Part shown: in pieces, positions 1-12,800 of the stretch
Numbering within the stretch: the first letter of the stretch is position 1
Layout: each line of letters opens with the position of its first letter
Source of the DNA: Clostridiales bacterium
GTDB taxonomy: Bacteria; Bacillota; Clostridia; UBA1381
Direction of reading: 5' to 3'
Assembly: GCA_029219585.1 (NCBI GenBank)
Contig: JAQXTR010000056.1
Span: 1-49,579, forward strand
DNA: 49,579 bases
Notes under the pieces: generated by a model
Databases searched by the model: none
The model's input: the letters and a program-made list of their open reading frames with translations, nothing else
What the model was told of the DNA's origin: nothing
Program-made: the position numbers and the translations under genes

Positions 1-770
1 ACGCCGAACCACAGCATACACTTCATGCCTTCATCATGCACATCCGAAACAAAGCCTTTCATATCCGAAAGTCTTTCCGGCTCCCAGTCGCCGCAGTGCG
101 CATAACCTCTCCCTCCGTCGCAAGTCTGCCATCCGTCATCGACAATAACGGTTTCCATACCGAGCTGTTTTGCCGCTTTTAATTCCGCAATAAGCTCTGC
201 ATGGTTTAAATTTTGATGATATGAATACCATGTTGAATACATCGGCTCCTTTGCCACCTCCGGCACTGATGTTTCCCCATACCATAAACGGCTTGTATCG
301 GCTAAAACTTCTTCATACGGCAGCTTTCTTGTATCTATTGTTAATACCGTTTCATATTTATCCATCGGACTTACAAGCTTTGTAAACAATGTCAGCTTAT
401 ACGCTATTTCCGCCGTTTCTTCAATTATACCCGCTGCAATCTCCATAGGAGTAAGCGGATCGCTTACGGAAACGGTAATCTCATTTATGCCGTCAAGCGA
501 CAAATGCGTCTGCAGAGGTGTTCCCTCGGCAGATCGTGAAGCGTTTTTAATCGGCATCCAGTTGGGATTGAGCGTTCTCGCCGACCACAGCTGCGGATAC
601 CACTGTGAAAACACGTTTTTGCACGGATGCGTCCAGCGTATAACAACAGGCTTTGGTGTGATTTGCTTTTCAAAATCGATGCTGATTTTGATTTTTATAA
701 TATCCTCCTGCTCTTGCGACTTTTGCAGAGATATTTTGTAGTCTGTTTCTGTTTTAAATTTATATTCCAT
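1..770 (-). CDS. Alpha-galactosidase, GH36 family (3' part outside window)
   Basis: The reading frame is open from ATG at 770 to the window edge, giving the first 256 residues. They match the N-terminal beta-sandwich and the start of the TIM barrel of GH36 alpha-galactosidases. The barrel entry motif VIVDDGWQT is present (D211, D212, W214), followed by GDW and then KCMLWFGV at the edge. GH36 enzymes remove terminal alpha-1,6-galactose from raffinose-type sugars and galactomannans. The aspartate nucleophile lies downstream and cannot be checked. No signal peptide is seen, so the enzyme is probably cytoplasmic. The ATG is 1 nt after the stop of the upstream GH2 gene, so the two are co-transcribed. 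Family assignment is firm; exact substrate is inference. Confidence 0.85.
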   Translation of the reverse strand, partial: MEYKFKTETDYKISLQKSQEQEDIIKIKISIDFEKQITPKPVVIRWTHPCKNVFSQWYPQLWSARTLNPNWMPIKNASRSAEGTPLQTHLSLDGINEITVSVSDPLTPMEIAAGIIEETAEIAYKLTLFTKLVSPMDKYETVLTIDTRKLPYEEVLADTSRLWYGETSVPEVAKEPMYSTWYSYHQNLNHAELIAELKAAKQLGMETVIVDDGWQTCDGGRGYAHCGDWEPERLSDMKGFVSDVHDEGMKCMLWFG

Positions 771-771
771 G

Positions 772-2502
772 TTATAATTCTCCGCGCCACAATGTTTTAA
801 GCATATGCGCCGCCATCTTAGGCTCTCTTTCTCTCGTGAACACGCCCTTGCGGTTAAATACGATTCTTGAAATGGTCTGCGCCGTTTTAAAGTCCGCAAA
901 CGCCCATACATGAGTACCTATCGCATACGGCTGTTCTCTGAATTTCTCATATTGCAGCTTTATCATCTTCGCCTGATATTCCTCGCTGAACATCTGCGGC
1001 GGCTCGGTGTGTATACCGGCAATTGCGTCCGCCCCGAACTCGGTAAGAATTATACCTTTTCCGAATTTCTTATAAAAACGGTCCGCACATTTAATAAATT
1101 CATCAAGCGATTCCTCAATCTGTCCCGGCCATTCATACCAGCCGTAATACTTATTTATACAGCAAATATCATAATACTGCATTCCTCTCGTATTTTCCGG
1201 CTCATAGAACGCAACAAAGGTTATCGGTATTGTACTGTCGAGAGCCCTTGCGGTTTCCGCCATAACCTTAAAGAAGTTTTCGCCCGCATCCGTTTCAATC
1301 ATAGGCTCGTTTGCAAGGCTCCACATAATGATTGACGGATGATTCTTATCCCTTTTTATCATTTCATGTATGACCGACACAGCCTTTTCCAAAACCTCAT
1401 CGGTATAATTTCTGTTGTTCAAACCAACAAACGGGGTTTCGGCAATAACCAACATACCCTCCTTATCCGCCATATCGAGTATATTTTCATCATACGGATA
1501 ATGAGATGTTCTGAATGAATTTGCTCCTATATCTTTCATAAGCGCAAAATCCTTTACCGTAACGGCATGGTTAAAGCCCTTGCCTATAATATGAAAATCC
1601 TCATGCTTTCCGAATCCCTTCAAAAATATTTCGCGTCCGTTTAAAATAAGCTTGTTATCCTCAACCTTTATTTCACGCACACCGAACGTTTCTTTATATT
1701 CATCCGTTACGGTATCGGTTATAAGACGTACTGACAAAGTATAAAGATTAGGCTCTCCGATATCCCAGAGTCTGACATTATCAAGAATAATTTCCCCCGA
1801 CACAGATTCAGCCTTGCTGCAGCGTATATTTACGATTTTACCATCTACCGATGCTTCAAGTCTTCCCGTAAATCTGTTGTTTAACTCGACATTAAACCGC
1901 ACCGCGGCGGTTTTATAATTTATTTCGGATACAATGGTTATATCCTCTATTCTTGTTTTCGGCGAGGTATAAAGATATACGCTTCTCTGTATTCCTCCGA
2001 ACGGAAAGAAATCGTACGGGACAGCCGGATATGACTGTGAAAATCCCATTCGTCCCTCATTCTCCATAAGAGTTGCCGGAGGCAATGACCATGGGTCAAG
2101 AGTACTGTCGGCAAGAACGACAACGGTATTTTTTTCTCCGAACCTTACATACTCCGTTATTGCCGCCTCAAACGGCAGAGCCGTTCCTATATGCTCCGTT
2201 ACATATTTATCGTTAATCCATACCTTGGCTTTTCCGCTTACGCTGCCGAAGCGTATGTATACCTCCTGTCCGCACCACATTTGCGGCAGGACAAATTCCT
2301 TTTTATATATGCCCTTTCCGTGAAACTGAAACAAGTCCTCATACTGGTCGTTCCAGCTCGCCGGAACGGCTATATTTCTTGTCTCGGGCAAATCGCATGA
2401 TGAAATATCATCAAATGTATTCTCCGAACGGTCGGCGTAAAACTGCCATATGCCGTCAAGTGAGTATAAGCTGCGGCATTTGTTAATCTGTGGATATAAC
2501 AT
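772..2502 (-). CDS. Beta-glucuronidase, GH2 family
   Basis: A 576-residue GH2 enzyme with an N-terminal jelly roll, an Ig-like middle domain and a C-terminal TIM barrel. The acid/base is E399 in N398-E-P; the nucleophile is E488 in LTEFGAD, followed by IAGIH and SEEYQ as in E. coli UidA. N550-R-K552 forms the NxK motif that reads the carboxylate of glucuronic acid in known beta-glucuronidases and is absent from plain beta-galactosidases, so release of glucuronate is the likely reaction. The segment matching Loop 1 of the E. coli enzyme, between GLN and the VIHEMIKRDKNHP helix, is very short. No signal peptide is seen. The SD (AAAGGGG) overlaps the stop of the preceding small peptide gene, so translation may be coupled. 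Confidence 0.88.
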   Translation of the reverse strand: MLYPQINKCRSLYSLDGIWQFYADRSENTFDDISSCDLPETRNIAVPASWNDQYEDLFQFHGKGIYKKEFVLPQMWCGQEVYIRFGSVSGKAKVWINDKYVTEHIGTALPFEAAITEYVRFGEKNTVVVLADSTLDPWSLPPATLMENEGRMGFSQSYPAVPYDFFPFGGIQRSVYLYTSPKTRIEDITIVSEINYKTAAVRFNVELNNRFTGRLEASVDGKIVNIRCSKAESVSGEIILDNVRLWDIGEPNLYTLSVRLITDTVTDEYKETFGVREIKVEDNKLILNGREIFLKGFGKHEDFHIIGKGFNHAVTVKDFALMKDIGANSFRTSHYPYDENILDMADKEGMLVIAETPFVGLNNRNYTDEVLEKAVSVIHEMIKRDKNHPSIIMWSLANEPMIETDAGENFFKVMAETARALDSTIPITFVAFYEPENTRGMQYYDICCINKYYGWYEWPGQIEESLDEFIKCADRFYKKFGKGIILTEFGADAIAGIHTEPPQMFSEEYQAKMIKLQYEKFREQPYAIGTHVWAFADFKTAQTISRIVFNRKGVFTREREPKMAAHMLKTLWRGEL

Positions 2503-2515
2503 AGTTTATCCCCTT

Positions 2516-2677
2516 TCAATGTATCCCTGCCATATCCACCTCAACCGGCTGATAGCCGTTAGCCGTAGCACGCTCCTTTGCGGCCTCAACACCGTCTGTC
2601 TGTACATAGGGCGCGGATGTGACTATTTTCTCCGCATCGAATTTTAAAACATTAATTTCAGGCTTGATGAATGTCAT
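2516..2677 (-). CDS. 53-residue peptide starting MTFIKPEI, unknown function
   Basis: A longer in-frame start exists at 2704, but a perfect AGGAGG (2692-2687) sits 9 nt before ATG 2677, which fixes the start. The product is 53 residues, without cysteine, transmembrane segment or signal peptide. An N-terminal half containing KPEINVLKFDAEKIVTS is followed by a polar, acidic tail ending VDMAGIH. From memory, short proteins opening with M-x-x-x-KPE and a following acidic/hydrophobic stretch recur in Clostridia without assigned function; the arrangement resembles a leader-core peptide, but no maturase or transporter is visible here. It is the first gene of an operon with the beta-glucuronidase (13 nt gap) and alpha-galactosidase. 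Real gene likely; function unknown. Confidence 0.7.
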   Translation of the reverse strand: MTFIKPEINVLKFDAEKIVTSAPYVQTDGVEAAKERATANGYQPVEVDMAGIH

Positions 2678-2851
2678 AATATTATTCCTCCTAAATACTT
2701 TCATTTATAACTCAAACTTAAATACATTATACAGCAGCTCAATGCCGTCCAGATTCTTCCACACAAATACCTTTATCATAATTATAGCCTGTATTGTGTA
2801 TATTAAAGCTTTCATAGGACATTACCTTCCTGCGCTTTTACATTTAGCCCT

Positions 2852-2857
2852 ATTATA
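2852..2857 (-). promoter_or_regulatory. Candidate -10 for the glycan operon
   Basis: TATAAT on the minus strand, about 175 nt before the 53-residue peptide start. No convincing -35 lies 16-18 bp upstream, so an activator may be needed, or the site may be chance. The rest of 2678-2977 is AT-rich with no further feature that I can support. Confidence 0.35.
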
Positions 2858-2977
2858 GAGTATACACCAAAAAAAAGGTTTTTGTCTATATTTTTTTCAA
2901 AACCGGGCAAAAAAAAGGGAAATATTAAATATCTGTATAAATCCGGTCATGTCACAGACTAAAAGATTAAATAATGG

Positions 2978-3006
2978 TTGCAAACAGACGCAGACAATGG
3001 TATAAT
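2978..3006 (+). promoter_or_regulatory. SigmaA-type promoter of the cobalamin operon
   Basis: TTGCAA (2978-2983), a 17-bp spacer and TATAAT (3001-3006). Transcription should begin near 3013, leaving a leader of only about 23 nt before cbiD. That leaves no room for a B12 riboswitch. An AAGGAGAGGGG ribosome binding site follows. Confidence 0.8.
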
Positions 3007-3035
3007 AGATATATCTTAAGGAGAGGGGAATCACA

Positions 3036-4145
3036 ATGGCAGAGCTTAGATCCGGCTATACAACAGGAACATGCGCAGCAATTGCAGCGAAAGCGGCGGT
3101 TCGTATGCTGCTGACTCAGGAAGCGGTTAAAACCGAATATGTGATTACCCCGAATGGTACACGCATTGAAACTGAAATTTCGGATGCTGAGTACAGCGGC
3201 TGCCGTGCGAGGTGCGCGGTGAAAAAATTCGCCGGAGATGATCCGGATATAACGAATGGGATGCGTATATTCGCTGAGGTCACGTTCGGAGGCGACGGTA
3301 TAGCGATAGACGGAGGCGAGGGTGTCGGAAGAGTTACGAAGCCCGGACTTGATCAGCCTGTAGGCGCTGCGGCGATAAACAGTGTGCCGCGCAGGATGAT
3401 TGCTGAAGCGGTGCGCGGAGTAATAGAGGAGCTTGGCGCAGAATGCGGAGCGCATGTGATTATATCTGTTCCGGGTGGTGAAAAAACAGCGCTAAAGACG
3501 TTTAATCCAAGGCTTGGCATTGAGGGAGGAATATCAATACTCGGCACAAGCGGAATAGTTGAGCCTATGAGTACACGTGCCGTTATTGAAACAATACGGA
3601 CAGAGCTTAACTTCAAGCGCCAAAACGGTCATAACTGCGTGGTTGTCGTACCCGGAAATTACGGCAGGGATTTTGTGATGGACAGGCTGGGACTTGATAT
3701 AGATTCAGCTGTGAAGTGCAGTAACTATATAGGCGAAGCAATTGACATTGCAATAGAGAAGCAGCTCGGCAGTATTTTACTTATTGGTCATGCCGGAAAG
3801 CTCATAAAGCTTGCCGCAGGAATAATGAATACCCATTCGCAAACGGCAGACGGCAGAGCCGAAATTTTCTGTACCCATGCCGCGCTTTGCGGTGCGTCGC
3901 TTGCGGTTTTGGAGAGAATTATGAAATGTGTGACAACTGATGACATGATAACGATACTTAAGGAGTTCGGAATGCTCGATGAAGTAATGCAGCGTATAGG
4001 TGAGCGGATAAATTATTATATCAACAAGCGCTGCGGCGGTGAAATAAAATATGCGTTTGAGGTTTTTTCTAATGTGCACGGAGAGCTGTGTCGCGGCGGA
4101 GATGAAAAAGTATTTGCAAATGCGGTTAAGGAGTATGTTAAATGA
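3036..4145 (+). CDS. cbiD: Cobalt-precorrin-5B C1-methyltransferase CbiD
   Basis: A 369-residue protein of full family length. It opens with the CbiD signature SGYTTGTCAAIAAKAA. CbiD uses S-adenosylmethionine to methylate C-1 of the corrin ring in the anaerobic (early cobalt insertion) B12 pathway, so this organism makes the ring by the anaerobic route. It is first in the operon, with a strong SD 5-9 nt upstream, and overlaps cobL by ATGA (4142-4145). Internal motifs VVVPGNYGRDF and LLIGHAGKLIKLAAGIMNTHS also match the family. Genes for the other ring-building steps (cbiC, cbiF, cbiG, cbiH, cbiJ, cbiK/X, cbiL) are not in this window. Confidence 0.96.
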   Translation: MAELRSGYTTGTCAAIAAKAAVRMLLTQEAVKTEYVITPNGTRIETEISDAEYSGCRARCAVKKFAGDDPDITNGMRIFAEVTFGGDGIAIDGGEGVGRVTKPGLDQPVGAAAINSVPRRMIAEAVRGVIEELGAECGAHVIISVPGGEKTALKTFNPRLGIEGGISILGTSGIVEPMSTRAVIETIRTELNFKRQNGHNCVVVVPGNYGRDFVMDRLGLDIDSAVKCSNYIGEAIDIAIEKQLGSILLIGHAGKLIKLAAGIMNTHSQTADGRAEIFCTHAALCGASLAVLERIMKCVTTDDMITILKEFGMLDEVMQRIGERINYYINKRCGGEIKYAFEVFSNVHGELCRGGDEKVFANAVKEYVK

Positions 4146-5395
4146 AGGTATATCTGATAGGTATAGGTATGGGGGACAATAAAACGCTTACAGCGGAGGC
4201 TGAGGAAGCAATGAAAAAGGCGGATGTGTTTATCGGTGCGGAACGTATGCTTGATGCCGTAAAGCTGTATGATAAGCCAAAGTATAAGGCATATAGGCCG
4301 GATGAAATTGAACAATATTTATCAGAGAGCGGAGCGGACACGGCCGCGGTGCTGTTATCGGGAGATATTTCCTTCTGCAGCGGCGCAAAGGGACTTGAGG
4401 AAAAACTGGAAGGATATGATATTGCGCGTATTCCGGGAATTTCATCATATTCATATATGTGCGGGAAGCTTGGCATAGATACTGCCGATACAGCGATTGT
4501 CAGCCTGCATGGATCACGGGAGGTTTATTTTAATAAAAAGAGCGTATGCAACATTGTGAGGGACAGTAAATATACCTTTGTTCTGCTTAATGAGCCTAAG
4601 GATATAAACTACCTCATAACGCAGCTGGGCAGCTACAGACTTGGTGACTGTATAATTCATATAGGGTCAAGACTGGGATATGAGGACGAGATGTTGTGCA
4701 AAACCGGTGTTTCATATATGTTTGACGCAGAACAGGAGGAAATCAAGGCGCCGGTATCCGTTATCATTGAAAACCCGTCACCGAAGAATTTACAGGGAAA
4801 GCATATAAGGGATGATGAATTTACCCGTGACAATATTCCGATGACAAAGGAGGATATAAGAGCTCTGTGTATTGCAAGGCTTGCCCTTGAGCACGACAGT
4901 ATTCTCTATGATATTGGCGCCGGAACAGGCTCGATAGCGGTCGAAGCATCATTGGTGTCGCATGATATAAGGGTATACGCAGTCGAGAAAAAGAGCGAGG
5001 GATATGTGCTTATAAATCAAAACCGCTGTAAATTCAGCTGTGACAATGTATTTCTGATAAACGGCGAGGCGCCCGAGGCTATAGAGTATCTCCCTGCGCC
5101 GACTCATGTATTTATCGGCGGCAGCGGCGGAAGACTTAAAGAAATTATCGAGTGCGTGATGAGGAAAAATCCGTTTGTCCGAATTGTCATAAATACTATA
5201 GCGCTTAACTCGGCCGCAGAGGTTATGAGAGTTATTGAGGAGCTTGATCTCGACAGCGAGATTATAAGCGTAAATACGGCTAAAGCAAAGAAGATGGGGG
5301 GCTATGATATGATGATGGGACAGAATCCTGTTTATATTTTCACACTTAGCAAAAAGCCGGAGCCGGAAACGGAAAATGAAGAAAATGAAGATTAA
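4142..5395 (+). CDS. cobL: Fused precorrin-6Y/cobalt-precorrin-7 methyltransferase CbiE-CbiT
   Basis: A 417-residue two-domain fusion. Residues 1 to about 210 are CbiE, a tetrapyrrole methylase of the CobA-like fold beginning MKVYLIGIGMGD, which methylates C-5. From about 222 (DDEFTRDNIPMTKEDIR) to about 400 is CbiT, a Rossmann SAM methyltransferase with motif I D257-IGAGTG-263, which methylates C-15 and decarboxylates the acetate side chain at C-12. In many anaerobic-pathway species these are two genes; the fusion is common in Clostridia. The C-terminal tail (KKPEPETENEENED) is acidic and overlaps the start of cbiA by 20 nt. Translation is coupled to cbiD by a 4-nt overlap. Confidence 0.94.
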   Translation: MKVYLIGIGMGDNKTLTAEAEEAMKKADVFIGAERMLDAVKLYDKPKYKAYRPDEIEQYLSESGADTAAVLLSGDISFCSGAKGLEEKLEGYDIARIPGISSYSYMCGKLGIDTADTAIVSLHGSREVYFNKKSVCNIVRDSKYTFVLLNEPKDINYLITQLGSYRLGDCIIHIGSRLGYEDEMLCKTGVSYMFDAEQEEIKAPVSVIIENPSPKNLQGKHIRDDEFTRDNIPMTKEDIRALCIARLALEHDSILYDIGAGTGSIAVEASLVSHDIRVYAVEKKSEGYVLINQNRCKFSCDNVFLINGEAPEAIEYLPAPTHVFIGGSGGRLKEIIECVMRKNPFVRIVINTIALNSAAEVMRVIEELDLDSEIISVNTAKAKKMGGYDMMMGQNPVYIFTLSKKPEPETENEENED

Positions 5396-6746
5396 TATAC
5401 CCCGAATTATGATAGCCTCCGCCATGAGCGGAGGAGGAAAAACAACAGCGGTATGCTCATTGCTCAGAGCCATGGAGAATATGGGATACAAAACGTCACC
5501 TTTTAAATGCGGACCTGATTATATTGATCCTATGTATCACAGGGCGGCTTGCGGGAAGATGGGGATAAATCTTGACTTGTTTTTCTGCGGTCCCGAAAAA
5601 TTAAAAACTGTTTTTGCGGAAAATTCAAAGGAATGTGATATTGCCGTTATTGAGGGTGCTATGGGTTACTATGACGGAAGGTCAATGGAGAGCACGGAGT
5701 TAAGCTCATATGATACGGCAAAAGAACTGGATTGTCCCGTGGTACTGATACTTCCCGCAAAAGGAATGGCATATACGGTTGTTCCTCTTATAAAGGGAAT
5801 GGCAGGGCAATTTAGCAACAGCCGAATAGTAGCGGTCATTCTGAATAATGTCACGAAAATGACATATATGCAGCTGAAGCCGGTAATAGAGAGGGAAACG
5901 GGAATTAAGGCGGCAGGATATATACCACGTCTGGACAAAGAACTAAAAAGCCGTCATCTCGGTCTTGTTATACCGGAGGACGCATATAATATTGAGGATA
6001 TTATTTCAGATACTGCTCGGATAGTTTCGGAAACTGTGGATATTGACTTGTTGATTAAGCTGGCAGAGAACACAGATGAGCTTGATTACATGACCGAAGA
6101 AAACGTAACATACGGCAGGGTTAAAATCGGGGTAGCATATGATAAGGCATTCTGCTTTTATTATAAGGACAATATTGACATCCTGAAGAAATACGGTGCA
6201 GATCCGGTGATGTTCAGCCCCCTCAAGGACAAAGCGCTGCCGGACGGGATATGCGGAATTTTACTCGGAGGCGGTTATCCTGAATTATACGCCAAGGAAC
6301 TCAGCGAGAACACGACGTTTTTAAGGGACATAAAAAATAAAATACAGAACAATATGCCTTGCCTTGCGGAGTGCGGAGGATTTATGTATCTTCATTCCGC
6401 GCTTGAAAGCGAGGACGGCATAATATATAAAATGGCTGATGTTGTAAAGGCAAAAGCTTTTAAAACGGATAGGCTTGTACGCTTCGGTTATGCTGAAATA
6501 ACCGGAGAACATACGTTAGGGACAATAAAAGCGCATGAATTTCACTATTGGGACAGTACGGATAACGGCAGAGCGTGTACAGCGGTAAAGCCCGGAGGAA
6601 AACGTGCATGGAAATGCATCCATGACAAAGGTAATTTATTTGCAGGCTTCCCGCATTTGTATTACCGCTCAAACGAAGATTTTATACAGCGGTTTACAGA
6701 CAGATGCGTTGAATATGGGAGGAGTATAAAATGTTTGAGCTTATAA
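5376..6746 (+). CDS. cbiA: Cobyrinic acid a,c-diamide synthase CbiA
   Basis: A 456-residue ATP- and glutamine-dependent amidase that amidates the a and c acetates of cobyrinate. The N-terminal dethiobiotin-synthetase-like domain has the P-loop ASAMSGGGKTT (K22), followed by FKCGPDYIDPMYH. The C-terminal glutamine amidotransferase domain has its nucleophile C333 in LAECGGFMYL, with the family's LLGGGYPELY before it. The gene overlaps cobL by 20 nt. ATG 5385 is an alternative start that removes only three residues. The next gene, cobU, starts 16 nt before the cbiA stop, so the set is tightly coupled. Confidence 0.95.
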   Translation: MKKMKINIPRIMIASAMSGGGKTTAVCSLLRAMENMGYKTSPFKCGPDYIDPMYHRAACGKMGINLDLFFCGPEKLKTVFAENSKECDIAVIEGAMGYYDGRSMESTELSSYDTAKELDCPVVLILPAKGMAYTVVPLIKGMAGQFSNSRIVAVILNNVTKMTYMQLKPVIERETGIKAAGYIPRLDKELKSRHLGLVIPEDAYNIEDIISDTARIVSETVDIDLLIKLAENTDELDYMTEENVTYGRVKIGVAYDKAFCFYYKDNIDILKKYGADPVMFSPLKDKALPDGICGILLGGGYPELYAKELSENTTFLRDIKNKIQNNMPCLAECGGFMYLHSALESEDGIIYKMADVVKAKAFKTDRLVRFGYAEITGEHTLGTIKAHEFHYWDSTDNGRACTAVKPGGKRAWKCIHDKGNLFAGFPHLYYRSNEDFIQRFTDRCVEYGRSIKCLSL

Positions 6747-7249
6747 TCGGCGGGAGCGGCAGCGGAAAATCCGAATATGCAGAAAAACGCGCAGCGGAGC
6801 TGTGTGAGGACGGAGAGCCTCTTTTGTATATAGCTACAATGAAGAGTGACGGTGAAGCTGCACGTAACCGTATTCAGCGTCACCGCAGAATGAGATCAGG
6901 AAAGGGGTTTCGGACTATAGAACAGCCAACAGGTTTAATGTCCCTGCCGGTACCGGAGAATGCGACTGTACTGCTGGAATGTATGTCCAATCTTCTTGCC
7001 AATGAGATGTTTGATAATGGGGGAAATTATCTAACCAGAATAATATCGGAAATTGAAAGACTGTTGTCTGAATGCAGGAATTTGGTTCTTGTTTCAAATG
7101 ATATTTTCTCCGATGGAATTATATACGATGGTGAAACAGAGGAATACAAAACAGCTCTTGCTGAGCTGAACAGATTTTGTGCCGAGAAGGCGGACAAGGT
7201 TACGGAGGTCACGTCATTGATCCCGAATATTATAAAATGTCAAGGATGA
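6731..7249 (+). CDS. cobU: Adenosylcobinamide kinase / phosphate guanylyltransferase CobU
   Basis: A 172-residue protein of normal length. The P-loop is GGSGSGKS (residues 7-14). The RIQRHRRMR segment carries the histidine region that becomes guanylylated in characterised CobU. The enzyme phosphorylates adenosylcobinamide and then attaches GMP, giving the activated substrate for CobS, which is the next gene. An ATGA overlap with cobS (7246-7249) couples the two steps. Confidence 0.94.
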   Translation: MFELIIGGSGSGKSEYAEKRAAELCEDGEPLLYIATMKSDGEAARNRIQRHRRMRSGKGFRTIEQPTGLMSLPVPENATVLLECMSNLLANEMFDNGGNYLTRIISEIERLLSECRNLVLVSNDIFSDGIIYDGETEEYKTALAELNRFCAEKADKVTEVTSLIPNIIKCQG

Positions 7250-7998
7250 AAAAAATGGTTAATTCACTTATTATAGCTTTTTCGATGTATTCAAGAATAC
7301 CGATGCCGCGCGTTGAGTGGAGAGAGGAAAGTATGAAATATGTTATGTGTTTTTTTCCTCTTATTGGTGTTATCATAGGTGGGATTATTTATTTTGCGGG
7401 AAAATTTATTCTTGCTCACGGCATAAGTACGCTTATGTACGCGGCAGTTATGAGTGTAATTCCGATTGTTATTACGGGCGGTATTCATATGGACGGTTTT
7501 ATTGATACGGCGGACGCCTTGGCCTCCTGCGGCAATAAGGAAGAAAAGCTTGCGATTATGAAGGATCCTCACATCGGTGCTTTTGCAATAATATGGACGG
7601 CAGTGTATTTTGTACTATGTCTCGGATTGTGGAGTGCCGCAGAAATATCTGATCTACCCGCGATTGCAGTGGGATATGCACTTTCAAGAACCATGAGCGG
7701 TATTTCAATCGTATGTTTTAAAACCGCAAAAAATACGGGACTTGCGCATATGTTCAGTGATGCTGCACAGAAAAAACGCGTAATTGCGGCGCTTGTGATC
7801 TGGCTGGTAGTTGAGGCGGCGGGACTGCTGATTATCGGCATAGGATATGCGGCGGCTGAAGCAGCAGCGGCGGTTGCCGTATTTATATGTCATTACCTCG
7901 TATGCCGCAGGCATTTCGGCGGAATAACCGGTGATCTCGCAGGCTGTTTTTTACAGGTATGTGAGCTTGCAATACTTGCGGCGGCAGTAATAATTTAG
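7246..7998 (+). CDS. cobS: Cobalamin synthase CobS (adenosylcobinamide-GDP ribazoletransferase)
   Basis: An integral membrane enzyme that joins adenosylcobinamide-GDP with alpha-ribazole or its phosphate. About 250 residues with five to seven hydrophobic segments. It opens with IIAFSMYSRIPMP and contains the hallmark GIHMDGFIDTADAL, whose acidic residues bind Mg2+. A longer open frame runs back to 7177 inside cobU but has no ribosome binding site. ATG 7246 overlaps the cobU stop. ATG 7255, with AAGGA 8 nt upstream, is an equally good start and would remove three residues. A 13-nt gap follows before cobD, where GGGAGAAGG acts as SD. Confidence 0.92.
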   Translation: MKKMVNSLIIAFSMYSRIPMPRVEWREESMKYVMCFFPLIGVIIGGIIYFAGKFILAHGISTLMYAAVMSVIPIVITGGIHMDGFIDTADALASCGNKEEKLAIMKDPHIGAFAIIWTAVYFVLCLGLWSAAEISDLPAIAVGYALSRTMSGISIVCFKTAKNTGLAHMFSDAAQKKRVIAALVIWLVVEAAGLLIIGIGYAAAEAAAAVAVFICHYLVCRRHFGGITGDLAGCFLQVCELAILAAAVII

Positions 7999-8011
7999 AG
8001 GGAGAAGGCTT

Positions 8012-9025
8012 ATGGAATACAGGCATGGCGGAAATGCTTTTGAATACGGAAAAAAAATACTGGATTTTTCGGTGAATATAAATCCGCTCGGTACGCCTTT
8101 GGCAGTGAAGAAGGCTGTTATATCGGTGCTGGATAAAATAGAGGAATATCCTGATTATAAATGCACGGAGCTTAGAAGGAAAATCGCAGAGCGAGAGGGC
8201 GTATCGCCTGAATATATCGTATGCGGCAACGGTGCGGCGGAGCTTATATACAGCTTAATGTATGCAGTCAGACCGAAGTCTGCAATCATACATACTCCGA
8301 CATTTTGTGAATATACCTATGCTGTTAAAGCATCTGACGGACACAAGGGTACAATCCTTATGTGTGCGGAATCGAACGCCGAAGAAAGGGCTCCATGTGT
8401 TGAATTTATATGCAATCCCAATAATCCAACGGGAACCCTGACGGAGCGGGCGGAAATAATACAAAAGCTTGAAACCACTGACAGGCTTATTGCGGTGGAT
8501 GAATGCTTCAATGATTTTCTTGACGAGCCTGAAAAATATTCATGCGTTAATCTGCTTGACAGATATAAAAGACTCATCATATTAAAGTCTTTTACTAAGA
8601 TGTATGCGATACCGGGGATAAGATTGGGGTATCTTATGACTTCTGATACGGAGCTTATTAATGAGATATACAAAGCGCGTCAGCCGTGGAGTGTTTCATC
8701 CGCGGCGCAGGCGGCGGGGCTTGCGGTATGCGAAGATACGGAAACACCGGTCAAAACAAGAAAATATATAAAAGAGGAAAGAGCATATCTGGAGATGGAG
8801 TTTGAAAGACTGGGAATCGAATATATGAGATCGTCTGCAAATTTTATTTTTTTCAAAGCTATGCCCGGACTGCAGAAGAAGCTGCTGGAAAAAAATATTC
8901 TCATTCGCGACTGCTCTGATTTTGAAGGCCTTGATGCCGGCAGCTACAGGATAGGGATAAAAAAGCATAATGATAATAAAAAGCTGATACTTGCGCTGGA
9001 GGAGGTGGTCAGATGCCAAAGGTGA
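8012..9025 (+). CDS. cobD: Threonine-phosphate decarboxylase CobD (class I PLP aminotransferase fold)
   Basis: A 337-residue protein. The N-terminus HGGNAFEYG followed by [10 protein letters not shown] is typical of CobD and separates it from histidinol-phosphate aminotransferase. The PLP-binding lysine is K196 in [16 protein letters not shown]. The enzyme makes (R)-1-amino-2-propanol phosphate, the nucleotide-loop linker, which CbiB attaches to cobyric acid. cbiB itself is not in this window. Context inside the cob operon supports the CobD role. It overlaps cbiP by 13 nt. Confidence 0.93.
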
Positions 9026-10512
9026 TAATGATACAGGGCACTATGTCGGGCGCGGGGAAAAGTCTTATTGCCGGTGCGCTGTGCAGAATATTCACACAGG
9101 ACGGTTATAAAACAGCGCCGTTTAAATCACAGAATATGGCGCTCAATTCATTTGTTACATCAGACGGCTTTGAAATGGGGCGTGCGCAGGTCATGCAGGC
9201 AGAGGCTGCGATGCGTGAGCCGGATGTGAGGATGAACCCTATACTTTTAAAGCCGACAAGTGATGTCGGTTCTCAGGTTATTGTAAACGGAAAGCCGATA
9301 GGCAATATGACCGCAAAGGAATACTTCAGTAAAAAGACCGAACTGATTCCTCATATAATGGAGGCATACAATTCATTGCTTGAGGAAAATGACATAATAG
9401 TTATTGAAGGCGCGGGCAGTCCTGCGGAGATCAATCTGAAAACGAATGACATTGTCAATATGGGAATGGCAAGGCTTGCGAAGTCACCTGTGCTTCTTGT
9501 GGGAGATATAGACCGAGGAGGCGTATTTGCGCAGCTTTACGGCACAATTGCCCTGCTTGAAAAACGTGAGAGGGAAATCACAAAGGGACTTATAATAAAC
9601 AAATTCCGCGGTGATGTGTCAATATTGCAGAGCGGGCTTGATATGCTGTACGAGCTGACCGAAAAGCCTGTTCTGGGGGTAATTCCTTACACGAATGCCG
9701 ATATTGATGATGAGGATTCTCTGACGGAACGATTCGAACAAAGGGACATAAAAAATGGAATTGATATAACTGTAATAAGACTGCCGAGAATATCAAATTT
9801 TACGGATTTTACACCATTTGAATGTATTCCGGGCGTGTCGATAAGATATGTAAGCCGTCCTCGTGAGCTTGGGGAACCTGATATGATAATCCTGCCCGGA
9901 ACAAAGAATACAATGGGAGATTTGAAGTGGCTTAGGGAAAGCGGTCTTGAAGCCGCAATATGCCGCAAAGCCGGCAGCGGTGTTCCGGTAATGGGAATAT
10001 GCGGCGGGTATCAGATGCTTGGAAGGATAATAGCAGATCCGGAAAATACTGAGGGCGGCGGAAGTATACGCGGTATGGGATTACTGGACACAGAAACGGT
10101 TTTTAAAAGCGGAAAGACCACAACGAGAGTGTCCGGCAGAATTATCGCCACAGGAGGCATATTTTCGGCTCTTAACGGCATACGGATAGACGGATATGAA
10201 ATACATATGGGATGTACTGCATCAAAAGGTGAGCCGCTTGCTGAGATAACGGATAATAACGGCAATATAAAGCCTGACGGATTATGCAGCGGCAATGTAT
10301 ACGGAACGTATGTTCACGGAATATTTGATAACGAAGAGGCGGTTAAAGTAATAGTTGAGGCGCTTATGGAGCGTAGGGGGATAGACTATTCGGATATAGA
10401 CTCTTTTGATATGAGGCTGTACAAGCAGCGGCAGTATGATATACTTGCAGATACGGTAAGAAACAGCCTTGACATGAAAACGATTTATGATATAACAGAA
10501 CAAGGTATATAA
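9013..10512 (+). CDS. cbiP: Cobyric acid synthase CbiP/CobQ
   Basis: A 499-residue protein of full length. The N-terminal ATPase domain has [10 protein letters not shown] and [10 protein letters not shown]. The C-terminal glutamine amidotransferase has nucleophile C330 in [11 protein letters not shown] and the distal histidine in [11 protein letters not shown]. It adds four amide groups (b, d, e, g) to adenosylcobyrinate a,c-diamide. An SD, GGAGGTGG, lies 5-6 nt upstream inside cobD. It is related in fold to CbiA, but length and motifs separate the two. Confidence 0.96.
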
Positions 10513-10539
10513 AATTGTAACAGAAGGAAGCTGAGAAAA

Positions 10540-11517
10540 ATGATAAACAGACCAAGAAGATTGAGGACGACACCGGAGCTGCGAAGCATGGTGCGGGAAA
10601 CGAGAGTGAGCGCGGATTCGCTTGTATACCCCATGTTTGTAACGGAGGGAAACGATATAAAAGAGGAAATTGACACAATGCCGGGGCAGTATCGGTGGAG
10701 CATTGACCGCATGGGAGAAATATTGCAGGACGTTATCAGTGCGGGAGTAAAATCAGTTATGCTGTTCGGAATACCGGAGCATAAGGATGAATGCGGAAGC
10801 GAGGCGTACAGCGACAACGGCATTATTCAGCGTGCGCTGAGATACGCAAAGGAAAATTATCCTGAGCTGTATTATATTACAGATGTATGTATGTGTGAGT
10901 ACACCTCACACGGACACTGCGGAATACTTGACGGACATTATGTGGATAATGACAAGACTCTGCAAATGCTTGCGAAAATAGCTGTGTCTCACGCAAAGGC
11001 CGGTGCGGATATGGTGGCACCGTCGGATATGATGGACGGACATATTGCAGCGATACGCAGTGCTCTTGACGAAAACGGATTTATAAATATTCCTATTATG
11101 GCATATTCGGTAAAATATGCGTCGGCATTCTACGGTCCGTTCCGTGACGCGGCAGGCTCTGCTCCGGCATTCGGCGACAGAAAGAGCTACCAGATGGATC
11201 CGCATAATATTCGGGAGGCGATAATTGAAGCGGAGCTTGACTATGAGGAGGGCGCAGATATTCTTATGGTAAAGCCGGGCATGGCGTATCTTGATGTTCT
11301 GCGTGAGGTAAAAGCGCGCTTTAACAAGCCTCTTGCGCTTTATTCGGTAAGCGGTGAATACTCGATGATAAAGGCGGGAGCAAAGCTTGGATATATAGAT
11401 GAAAAGAAAATGATATGCGAATCGGCTGTATGTATGTATAGGGCAGGAACGGATATTCTTATTACATATTTTGCGAAGGAAATTGCGCAATATATAAAGG
11501 AAGGACTGATAGGCTGA
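10540..11517 (+). CDS. hemB: Delta-aminolevulinic acid dehydratase (porphobilinogen synthase) HemB
   Basis: A 325-residue enzyme that condenses two 5-aminolevulinate molecules to porphobilinogen. The two Schiff-base lysine motifs are present: YSVKYASAFYGPF and MVKPGMAYLD. The metal site reads DVCMCEYTSHGHCG, with three cysteines, so this is the zinc-dependent type. It sits in the B12 operon so that precursor supply follows corrin synthesis. The SD is AGAAGGAAG. Its stop overlaps the hemL start by 1 nt. Confidence 0.96.
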   Translation: MINRPRRLRTTPELRSMVRETRVSADSLVYPMFVTEGNDIKEEIDTMPGQYRWSIDRMGEILQDVISAGVKSVMLFGIPEHKDECGSEAYSDNGIIQRALRYAKENYPELYYITDVCMCEYTSHGHCGILDGHYVDNDKTLQMLAKIAVSHAKAGADMVAPSDMMDGHIAAIRSALDENGFINIPIMAYSVKYASAFYGPFRDAAGSAPAFGDRKSYQMDPHNIREAIIEAELDYEEGADILMVKPGMAYLDVLREVKARFNKPLALYSVSGEYSMIKAGAKLGYIDEKKMICESAVCMYRAGTDILITYFAKEIAQYIKEGLIG

Positions 11518-12800
11518 TGAAGACGGAGATTTCCGAGAAACTTTTCGAAAGAGCGGTAAGGGTAATGCCGGGCGGAGTGAATTCACCTGTCCGTGCCTTC
11601 GGATCGGTGGGAGGAACACCGAGGTTTATTGAACGCGCGAAGGGTGCAATACTCTATGATATAGACGGAAACGAATACACGGATTATATAGGCTCATGGG
11701 GACCTATGATTCTGGGACATAATGACGATAGGGTTCTTGAGGCTGTCATGAAGCAAATGGAAAAAGGTCTGAGCTTTGGCGCGGCAACGGGTATTGAGGT
11801 GGAAATGGCAGAGCTGATAGGTGAGCTTGTGCCATGCGTTGATATGATAAGAATGGTAAACTCGGGAACAGAAGCCGTTATGAGTGCAGTAAGAGCGGCA
11901 AGGGGATTTACCGGACGGGATAAGATAATTAAGTTTGAGGGCTGTTATCACGGTCATGCCGATGCTATGCTTGTCAAGGCAGGCTCGGGAGTGATGACCG
12001 CCGGGGTGCCGGATTCTGCCGGAGTGCCGCAGGGCTGCGCGAGGGATACGCTGACGGCGGAATATAACAATCTTAAAAGTGCGGAAAGCTTATTCGATGC
12101 TTACCCTAATGAAATTGCATGTATAATAGTTGAACCGGTTGCGGCCAATATGGGGGTTGTTGTTCCGGAAAACGGATTTCTGCAGGGGCTTAGAGATATG
12201 TGTGACAGGAACGGTGCACTTCTTATTTTTGATGAGGTCATAACAGGCTTTCGTCTCGGTCTTGACGGCGCGGCAGGTCATTTCGGCGTAATACCCGACC
12301 TTGTTACCTACGGTAAAATTATAGGAGGCGGAATGCCCGTCGGTGCTTACGGCGGCAGACGTGATATAATGAGCGTTGTTTCGCCGCTCGGCAATGTCTA
12401 TCAGGCGGGGACTTTAAGCGGCAATCCTATAGCGATGCGTGCAGGAATTACACAGCTCAGTATTTTAAAGAATGAACCGCAGATTTATGACAGAATTAAT
12501 ATGCTTGGTCAAAGGCTGAGAGCGGGACTGCGCAGCGCGATAGAAAAATCCGGACTGCCGTATACGGTCAACGGTATCGGATCGCTCTCATGTTTGTATT
12601 TTGCGGACAAGCCTGTTTATGACTATGTATCTGCGAGAAAATCGGATACCGTAAAATTTGCAGAATATTTCAGGCATATGCTCAGTTGCGGGCATTATAT
12701 CGGACCGAGTCAGTATGAGGCTGTGTTCATATCGGGCGCGCATACCGAGAGTGATATTGATAGGTTTATTGCGGACGCAGAGGAGTATTTAAAGGCATGA
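11517..12800 (+). CDS. hemL: Glutamate-1-semialdehyde 2,1-aminomutase HemL
   Basis: A 427-residue PLP enzyme of normal length. It has MPGGVNSPVRAF at the N-terminus, VNSGTEAVMSAVRAARG, the loop CYHGHAD, and the PLP lysine in TYGKIIGGGMPVGAYGG. It converts glutamate-1-semialdehyde to 5-aminolevulinate, so the organism uses the C5 pathway from glutamyl-tRNA. hemA (glutamyl-tRNA reductase), the partner step, is not in this window. It ends in an ATGA overlap with cobO (12797-12800). Confidence 0.96.
   Translation: MKTEISEKLFERAVRVMPGGVNSPVRAFGSVGGTPRFIERAKGAILYDIDGNEYTDYIGSWGPMILGHNDDRVLEAVMKQMEKGLSFGAATGIEVEMAELIGELVPCVDMIRMVNSGTEAVMSAVRAARGFTGRDKIIKFEGCYHGHADAMLVKAGSGVMTAGVPDSAGVPQGCARDTLTAEYNNLKSAESLFDAYPNEIACIIVEPVAANMGVVVPENGFLQGLRDMCDRNGALLIFDEVITGFRLGLDGAAGHFGVIPDLVTYGKIIGGGMPVGAYGGRRDIMSVVSPLGNVYQAGTLSGNPIAMRAGITQLSILKNEPQIYDRINMLGQRLRAGLRSAIEKSGLPYTVNGIGSLSCLYFADKPVYDYVSARKSDTVKFAEYFRHMLSCGHYIGPSQYEAVFISGAHTESDIDRFIADAEEYLKA

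Follow-up and report, generated by a model that had tools for sequence, protein, structure and literature searches.

A 53-residue peptide, probably an LPP-like precursor, ahead of a beta-glucuronidase gene in a Clostridiales bacterium is an atypical member of a large peptide family

The window, which denotes here the whole stretch of DNA analysed, comprises 49,579 nucleotides of a gut bacterium of the Clostridiales (assembly GCA_029219585.1, contig JAQXTR010000056.1), and close to one end it carries a short minus-strand gene that translates into 53 residues and a stop codon (Table 1). As a first-pass annotation made from the sequence alone had proposed, the peptide contains no cysteine and its gene leads a minus-strand run ahead of two glycosidase genes. 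The first of these scores 582 bits against the PRK10150 model (cut-off 544), and the second is matched by PF02065 on the longer frame 3-911 at 27.9 bits (cut-off 27). The peptide gene also has the strongest Shine-Dalgarno sequence of the operon, compared with AAGGGG for the GH2 gene and GGAG (by eye) for the melibiase-like gene; its stop codon was said to overlap the beta-glucuronidase Shine-Dalgarno sequence, where the two in fact adjoin and any overlap amounts to at most one base. A promoter scan of positions 2500-3100 returned five sites against 2.3 expected in shuffled sequence. The window peptide is matched by no Pfam or NCBIfam model at E <= 1. The divergent genes upstream look by eye like cobalamin biosynthesis genes. 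A 36-codon frame with a hydrophobic start (MKALIYTIQAIIMIKVFVW...) lies at 2708-2815 on the minus strand, is preceded by GGAAGG and ends 27 nt ahead of the peptide ATG; among the collected loci it matches itself alone.

Table 1. Coordinates of the peptide gene and of neighbouring features in the window.
Feature	Position	Strand	Basis or remark
LPP-like precursor peptide gene, 53 aa	2516..2677	-	translation; leave-one-out family profile, E = 2e-11
Predicted leader, residues 1-20 (MTFIKPEINVLKFDAEKIVT)	2618..2677	-	motif positions
Predicted core/tail, residues 21-53	2519..2617	-	motif and tail comparison
Shine-Dalgarno AGGAGG, full, 9 nt ahead of ATG	2687..2692	-	sequence
Shine-Dalgarno-like AAGGGG of GH2 gene	2510..2515	-	directly abuts peptide TGA (2516-2518)
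Beta-glucuronidase (GH2), 13 nt downstream of peptide gene	772..2502	-	PRK10150 and Pfam GH2 domains
Melibiase/GH36-like gene, cut by contig end	3..770	-	PF02065; start 770 by eye
Possible promoter TAGACA-18-TATACT, 10/12	2859..2888	-	consensus scan alone

The front of the peptide follows a motif that was defined on 47 sequences, namely the peptides from forty fetched regions and the window peptide; one of the regions, L043, yielded no peptide with the gene caller used, and another copy there is cut. The motif, [YFW]xxP-x6-F-x2-E-x3-T, is ungapped and is followed by a Ser at most four positions on. An aromatic residue three before Pro (Tyr in 31, Phe in 15, Trp in one) and Phe at P+7 are found in all 47, Glu or Asp at P+10 in 45, Thr at P+14 in 40, and Ser at +1 to +4 after the Thr position in 46 (at +2 in 31), counts that are partly by construction because a profile chose the peptides. 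The window leader has FxxP, F at P+7, E at P+10 and T at P+14. Behind this front the tails vary across the 47 peptides, which agrees with the leader-core division read from the single sequence in the first-pass annotation. The window tail is short relative to the family, with Ser at +1 and a terminal His, where 35 of the 47 end in an aromatic residue (F, Y or W).

A profile built from the other 46 peptides recovers the window peptide among the 830 open frames of the window at E = 2e-11 and 39.8 bits, against 5.1 bits for the next-best frame and at most 11.8 bits for 2,000 shuffles of the peptide; as the 46 came from a search seeded by the window peptide, the family also rests on its spread and gene context. 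A seven-sequence profile has matches in all 16 genomes of the genus that were searched (2-31 each at E <= 1), including distant paralogues in the genome of the window itself (G000), which holds 10 family copies at E <= 0.001. Homologues with the same front exist, so the first-pass annotation is not refuted on the ground it had named, a lack of any such homologue. The precursors are many and scattered in the genus, and large numbers also occur in G017 (25 matches), G047 (19) and G076 (15). The best match to the window peptide in the 15 other genus genomes has an E-value of 0.007, and no close orthologue was found there. With a carrier defined as a genome holding a family peptide at E <= 0.001, 26 of 60 genomes of the order are carriers, five of which (G020, G039, G045, G049, G062) rest on one or a few matches with E-values of 2e-4 to 1e-3. 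The 53-codon gene is real and a member of a large family. Its relatives in named records come from uncultured Clostridia and Oscillospiraceae MAGs, and some of these records are labelled Lapin (rabbit) or Goat_Ileum. At L043 4969-5727 (contig C65 of the same genome), a family peptide is fused in frame to what looks by eye like a serine-recombinase sequence; the fused peptide has no tail and its upstream partner gene is intact. A search of solved structures with the peptide profile gave a best E-value of 0.033, to RIG-I, which was taken as chance.

The relatives mostly lie just behind a gene for a secreted protein. A same-strand gene with a signal peptide lies directly upstream of 60 of 96 distinct peptides, against 53 of the 522 remaining genes of these loci, where signal peptides were recognised by a home-made pattern rather than SignalP, genes were called by a home-made caller, and the loci form no random sample since they were picked by peptide matches. 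For the other 36 peptides, the upstream gene runs off the locus in 16, is on the same strand with no visible signal peptide in nine (mostly cut loci) and is missing in nine, while one is a tandem copy and one sits at an edge. All 14 peptides in named records, three of which repeat peptides already counted, have a same-strand gene directly upstream, with a signal-like start in 13 and a cut gene in one. The link to glycosidases drawn in the first-pass annotation is not supported by the family: no other copy read precedes a beta-glucuronidase, and a glycosidase partner, seen in none of the other copies read, was rejected. At L047 2515-2676 the order is reversed, the family peptide standing ahead of a secreted protein with the C-terminal domain described below.

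A domain of about 85 residues is common to 37 of the 39 partners from the genus (close homologues left out of the profile, E-values being for one sequence). It is C-terminal in 36 of the 39, the match in L075 lies away from the end, and L042 and L062 failed the test. The front parts of the partners vary and include LRR, laminin-G-like, pectate lyase, pectinesterase, GDSL lipase and other types, and at least 20 of 45 partners (37 of the 39 together with eight from other genera) have no Pfam match at E <= 0.001. Among the partners read outside the window's family of genomes, the profile found the domain in L224 alone. AlphaFold2 models one partner with a mean pLDDT of 57 (12 rows), and Foldseek returns legume-lectin-like matches for it at TM of about 0.25-0.47, a hint only. 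Twelve locus pairs, six of them supplied by four loci, combine similar C-terminal domains with dissimilar fronts, and in 11 of the 12 the tails resemble each other above the 95th percentile of all pairs; in the sole pair with alike fronts and unlike domains the tails are unlike. Partner domain and peptide tend to travel together. Tail and partner covary at r = 0.66 (39 pairs), against r = 0.10 (23 pairs) for an N-part control; after thinning to 64 unlike pairs the correlation is 0.25 for the tail and 0.27 for the leader. A specific tail-partner covariation was accordingly rejected, as the tail follows the domain no better than the leader does, which argues against specific contact. No description of such peptide and secreted-protein pairs was found in the part of the literature searched. 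New in this family are the large number of precursors scattered over a genome, the signal-peptide gene ahead of them and the domain that the partners have in common.

The YxxPx[hydrophobic] pattern is familiar as the RRE-binding leader of lasso peptides, and its spacing suggested that the family front is such a leader. The form [YFW]xxPx[VILMFA] is present in all 96 distinct peptides, partly by construction, with Tyr in 68 and Phe in the window copy. The linear polyphosphorylated peptides (LPPs; LppA/K/B/S/D/N) offer a close precedent (Popov et al. 2026, Nat Commun, 20 May 2026; PMC13381572). In that pathway the kinase LppK phosphorylates core Ser3, the RRE LppB binds YxxP, the SipW-like LppS cleaves behind Thr-1, LppD serves as an export pump, and the NTP transferase LppN had no visible effect in the authors' host. 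The Discussion of the same paper states the biological role of LPPs and paeninodins as unknown. The first-pass remark that peptides of this kind have no known function thus holds for their role, whereas their likely pathway has had a close precedent since May 2026.

The family resembles LPPs, as these are described in PMC13381572, in that its precursors are short, carry the RRE-binding YxxPx[hydrophobic] as a conserved element near the N-terminus, vary at the C-terminus and have a Thr shortly ahead of a Ser. In locus L208 the peptide also stands together with an HprK-like kinase, discrete PqqD RRE, SipW-like peptidase, NTP transferase and MsbA-like exporter; as for LPPs, no macrolactam cyclase occurs in the clusters read (L207-L210, L213). 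Unlike LPPs, none of the 96 peptides has the consensus YxxPxVLxHQxIxFETxxS (HQ in 0 and FET in 7 of the 96), the family Thr is two residues further from Pro, and the Ser is mostly at +2 rather than +3. LPP clusters hold one to three precursors each, while here the precursors are many and scattered and come with an upstream signal-peptide gene and a shared partner domain; the words 'secreted', 'surface' and 'Clostridia' do not occur in the main text of PMC13381572. The gene set is moreover dispersed in the window's genus. As the full consensus is absent, the family is called LPP-like rather than assigned to the LPPs. Paeninodin-type phosphorylated lasso peptides also share an RRE leader motif, an HprK-like kinase and a nucleotidyltransferase (PMC13381572, PMC7533575), but their leader has WxxP, with W in one of 96 peptides here, and no cyclase or B2 protease was seen in the clusters read. 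In the pseudomycoidin producer, a nucleotidyltransferase has been linked with glycosylation (PMC7533575). The HprK-like proteins further show a weak likeness to SynChlorMet ScmC and HprK-related kinase A (TIGR04249, TIGR04352; best E-value 3.3e-9), reaching at most 36.5 bits against cut-offs of 125 or 200, and the kinase profile matched no solved structure at E <= 0.01.

Contrary to the lack of a maturase noted in the first-pass annotation, candidate maturation genes do occur in the genus, at a distance from the peptide; they encode an HprK-like kinase, a PqqD RRE, a SipW-like peptidase and a nucleotidyltransferase. PqqD (PF05402) was found in 14 of 16 genus genomes, as a single copy in 13 and as two copies in G014, and 12 of the 15 genus loci with PqqD that were fetched have the gene order HprK-like kinase, PqqD and a reductase that is presumably folA-like. 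Across the 60 genomes of the order, PqqD and the HprK-like kinase are each present in 42, the SipW-like peptidase in 41 and NTP_transf_5 in 35. They accompany the peptide: of the 26 carriers, 25 have PqqD, against 17 of the 34 non-carriers (p = 1.2e-4), and the kinase gives the same counts; the peptidase is present in 25 and 16 (p = 4.5e-5), and NTP_transf_5 in 21 and 14. In the class (293 genomes), PqqD is found in 26 of 27 carriers against 111 of 266 other genomes (p = 1e-8), and outside the order in 18 of 18 against 108 of 258. Related genomes are not independent, so that these p-values overstate the evidence; the pattern still recurs in many families. Given its presence in half of the order's non-carriers, PqqD does not imply the peptide, and that count is raised by a second PqqD-like family that PF05402 also detects. 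Its members are 112-116 aa long (L138 3871-4209, L142 3759-4109, L144 3875-4219) and differ from the RRE discussed here; in three genera they immediately follow a membrane-protein gene of about 630 codons.

In some lineages peptide and enzymes are absent together. In genus g4, peptide, kinase, peptidase and NTP_transf_5 are absent from all 12 genomes and PqqD from 11, the exception being a weak match in G023, a genome with 8% contamination; within genus g2, the 25 peptides of G017 come with all four enzymes, and its genus-mate G018 has neither peptides nor enzymes. Among the carriers, G004 has no SipW-like peptidase, and NTP_transf_5 is missing from five of 26 (G004, G012, G040, G045, G049). 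The control genome of Bacteroides ihuae matches PqqD and NTP_transf_5, and a similar system may exist in Bacteroidota. The second PqqD gene of G014 (L101 99-588, contig C95) follows a short cysteine-rich frame that by eye looks like the end of a SPASM radical SAM enzyme, perhaps another RRE pathway in the genus.

Physical linkage was found in more distant relatives. In two genomes of another family of the order a family-like peptide gene stands directly before HprK: in L153 it follows a secreted-protein gene, and in L146, whose peptide was recognised by eye and not reported by the profile, it follows a frame that the edge of the locus cuts. Outside the order, 8 of 18 carriers have a peptide match and PqqD on one strand and no more than about 5 kb apart. 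The L208 operon reads peptide, HprK-like kinase, PqqD, SipW-like peptidase, exporter and nucleotidyltransferase, and a signal-peptide gene lies 133 nt ahead of the peptide. L213 reads secreted protein, peptide, HprK-like kinase, PqqD, SipW-like peptidase and nucleotidyltransferase; L211 is arranged similarly, its kinase frame having been called as a fragment alone. Between kinase and nucleotidyltransferase there is no room for a cyclase or B2 gene in L207-L210 and L213. In the window's genus, kinase/PqqD, peptidase and nucleotidyltransferase are encoded at separate places, away from the peptide genes. Most of the 20 NTP_transf_5 loci read in the order (L163-L182) have, by eye, sugar or capsule genes around them and are distant from kinase and PqqD, with L163 (from the window's own genome), L167, L168 and L177 as exceptions; since this setting holds for most but not all loci, and not in the own genome, the role assigned to NTP_transf_5 is the least secure. 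In seven of eight genus loci (L237-L242, L244) one and the same gene, about 560 codons long and by eye coding for an oleate hydratase-like flavoprotein, comes next after that of the SipW-like peptidase, and L243 stops short of that position.

From the computed family, front motif, enzyme co-occurrence, operon linkage in relatives, upstream signal-peptide gene and shared domain, we infer the chemical steps, cut site, export and role of a pathway for which the peptide is probably a precursor, one related to that of the LPPs and built on an HprK-like kinase and a PqqD RRE. The front strand, [YF]xxP-hydrophobic, would dock on the PqqD protein, and the HprK-like kinase would phosphorylate a Ser just behind the conserved Thr. 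A SipW-like peptidase, acting on the RRE, would then cut the leader off after that Thr, which by analogy with LPP (PMC13381572) places the predicted site in the window peptide after Thr20. The nucleotidyltransferase may add a further group to the phosphate, and the core would be exported after processing. In this lineage a single enzyme set would serve numerous scattered precursors, whose genes normally come right after that of a secreted protein, and at the cell surface the mature core would act on or with this partner.

The window copy itself departs from this arrangement. Of the 10 copies in its genome, nine directly follow a gene on the same strand, which shows a signal peptide in eight cases and is cut by a contig end in one; the window copy is the exception. 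It is atypical in having no partner, in lacking an aromatic C-terminal strand and in standing ahead of a beta-glucuronidase; it keeps the leader, and its partner was lost or never present. There is accordingly some prospect, though short of even, that it is an orphan, decaying or repurposed, that is neither matured nor functional in its own right, an explanation compatible with that given for the family. The divergent upstream genes, on whose frames the partner-domain profile reaches an E-value of 1.9 at best, the Ser at +1, the non-aromatic end and the lack of a close orthologue in the 15 other genus genomes searched all speak for it, but the front is complete, the Shine-Dalgarno sequence perfect and the frame intact. 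The assembly of its genome (99 contigs, 92% complete) contains the SipW-like peptidase (C83) and NTP_transf_5 (C63), while searches for PqqD and HprK found none and a folA-like query, run with no positive control, came back empty. As kinase, PqqD and the folA-like gene form one locus in relatives, the missing locus is probably an assembly gap.

An improbable alternative to a modified precursor is a small unmodified protein, such as a chaperone, inhibitor or subunit, that serves the secreted partner, with the PqqD/HprK link reflecting shared lifestyle or lineage. The tight pairing with signal-peptide genes, the joint likeness of partner domain and tail in pairs with unlike fronts, and the position of most copies away from the enzymes would fit such a protein. 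Against it stand the peptide beside HprK in the distant genomes of L146, L153 and L213 and in the same operon in L208, the presence of PqqD in every carrier outside the order and the RRE-type leader motif; the AlphaFold2 model of the window peptide (mean pLDDT 57, 13 rows) also fits an unfolded peptide, as well as a shallow alignment. Less probable still is a leader ORF that controls beta-glucuronidase translation by coupling. The gene is indeed the first of its run, with a strong Shine-Dalgarno sequence and a stop abutting that of the GH2 gene, but other family members mostly lie behind rather than ahead of their neighbour gene, and no Rfam element reaches gathering score in window positions 1-12000; on the latter result and the family context, an attenuator or riboswitch was rejected. 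A lasso peptide precursor, suggested by the [Y/W]xxPx[hydrophobic] leader and by the PqqD and HprK of paeninodin-type clusters (PMC13381572), is very improbable and was rejected, as the clusters read contain no cyclase, their consecutive genes leave no space for one or for a B2 protease, and no NCBIfam model matches the window peptide.

For the role of a processed precursor, surface display can be put forward as a speculative and rather unlikely proposal, in which phosphorylated cores, linked through their phosphate to a sugar or capsule glycan, would hold the secreted partners on the cell surface by a C-terminal beta strand docking in the partner's C-terminal domain, so that one enzyme set would serve dozens of tag-cargo pairs. 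With up to about 30 precursors per genome, mostly behind secreted proteins that have a common C-terminal domain, a role at the cell surface is directly testable. Taken together, the data suggest that an RRE-kinase enzyme set is able to serve genome-wide substrates in trans, which would escape genome mining by gene cluster, and the pairing with secreted proteins gives an initial hint at the function of peptides modified in this way.
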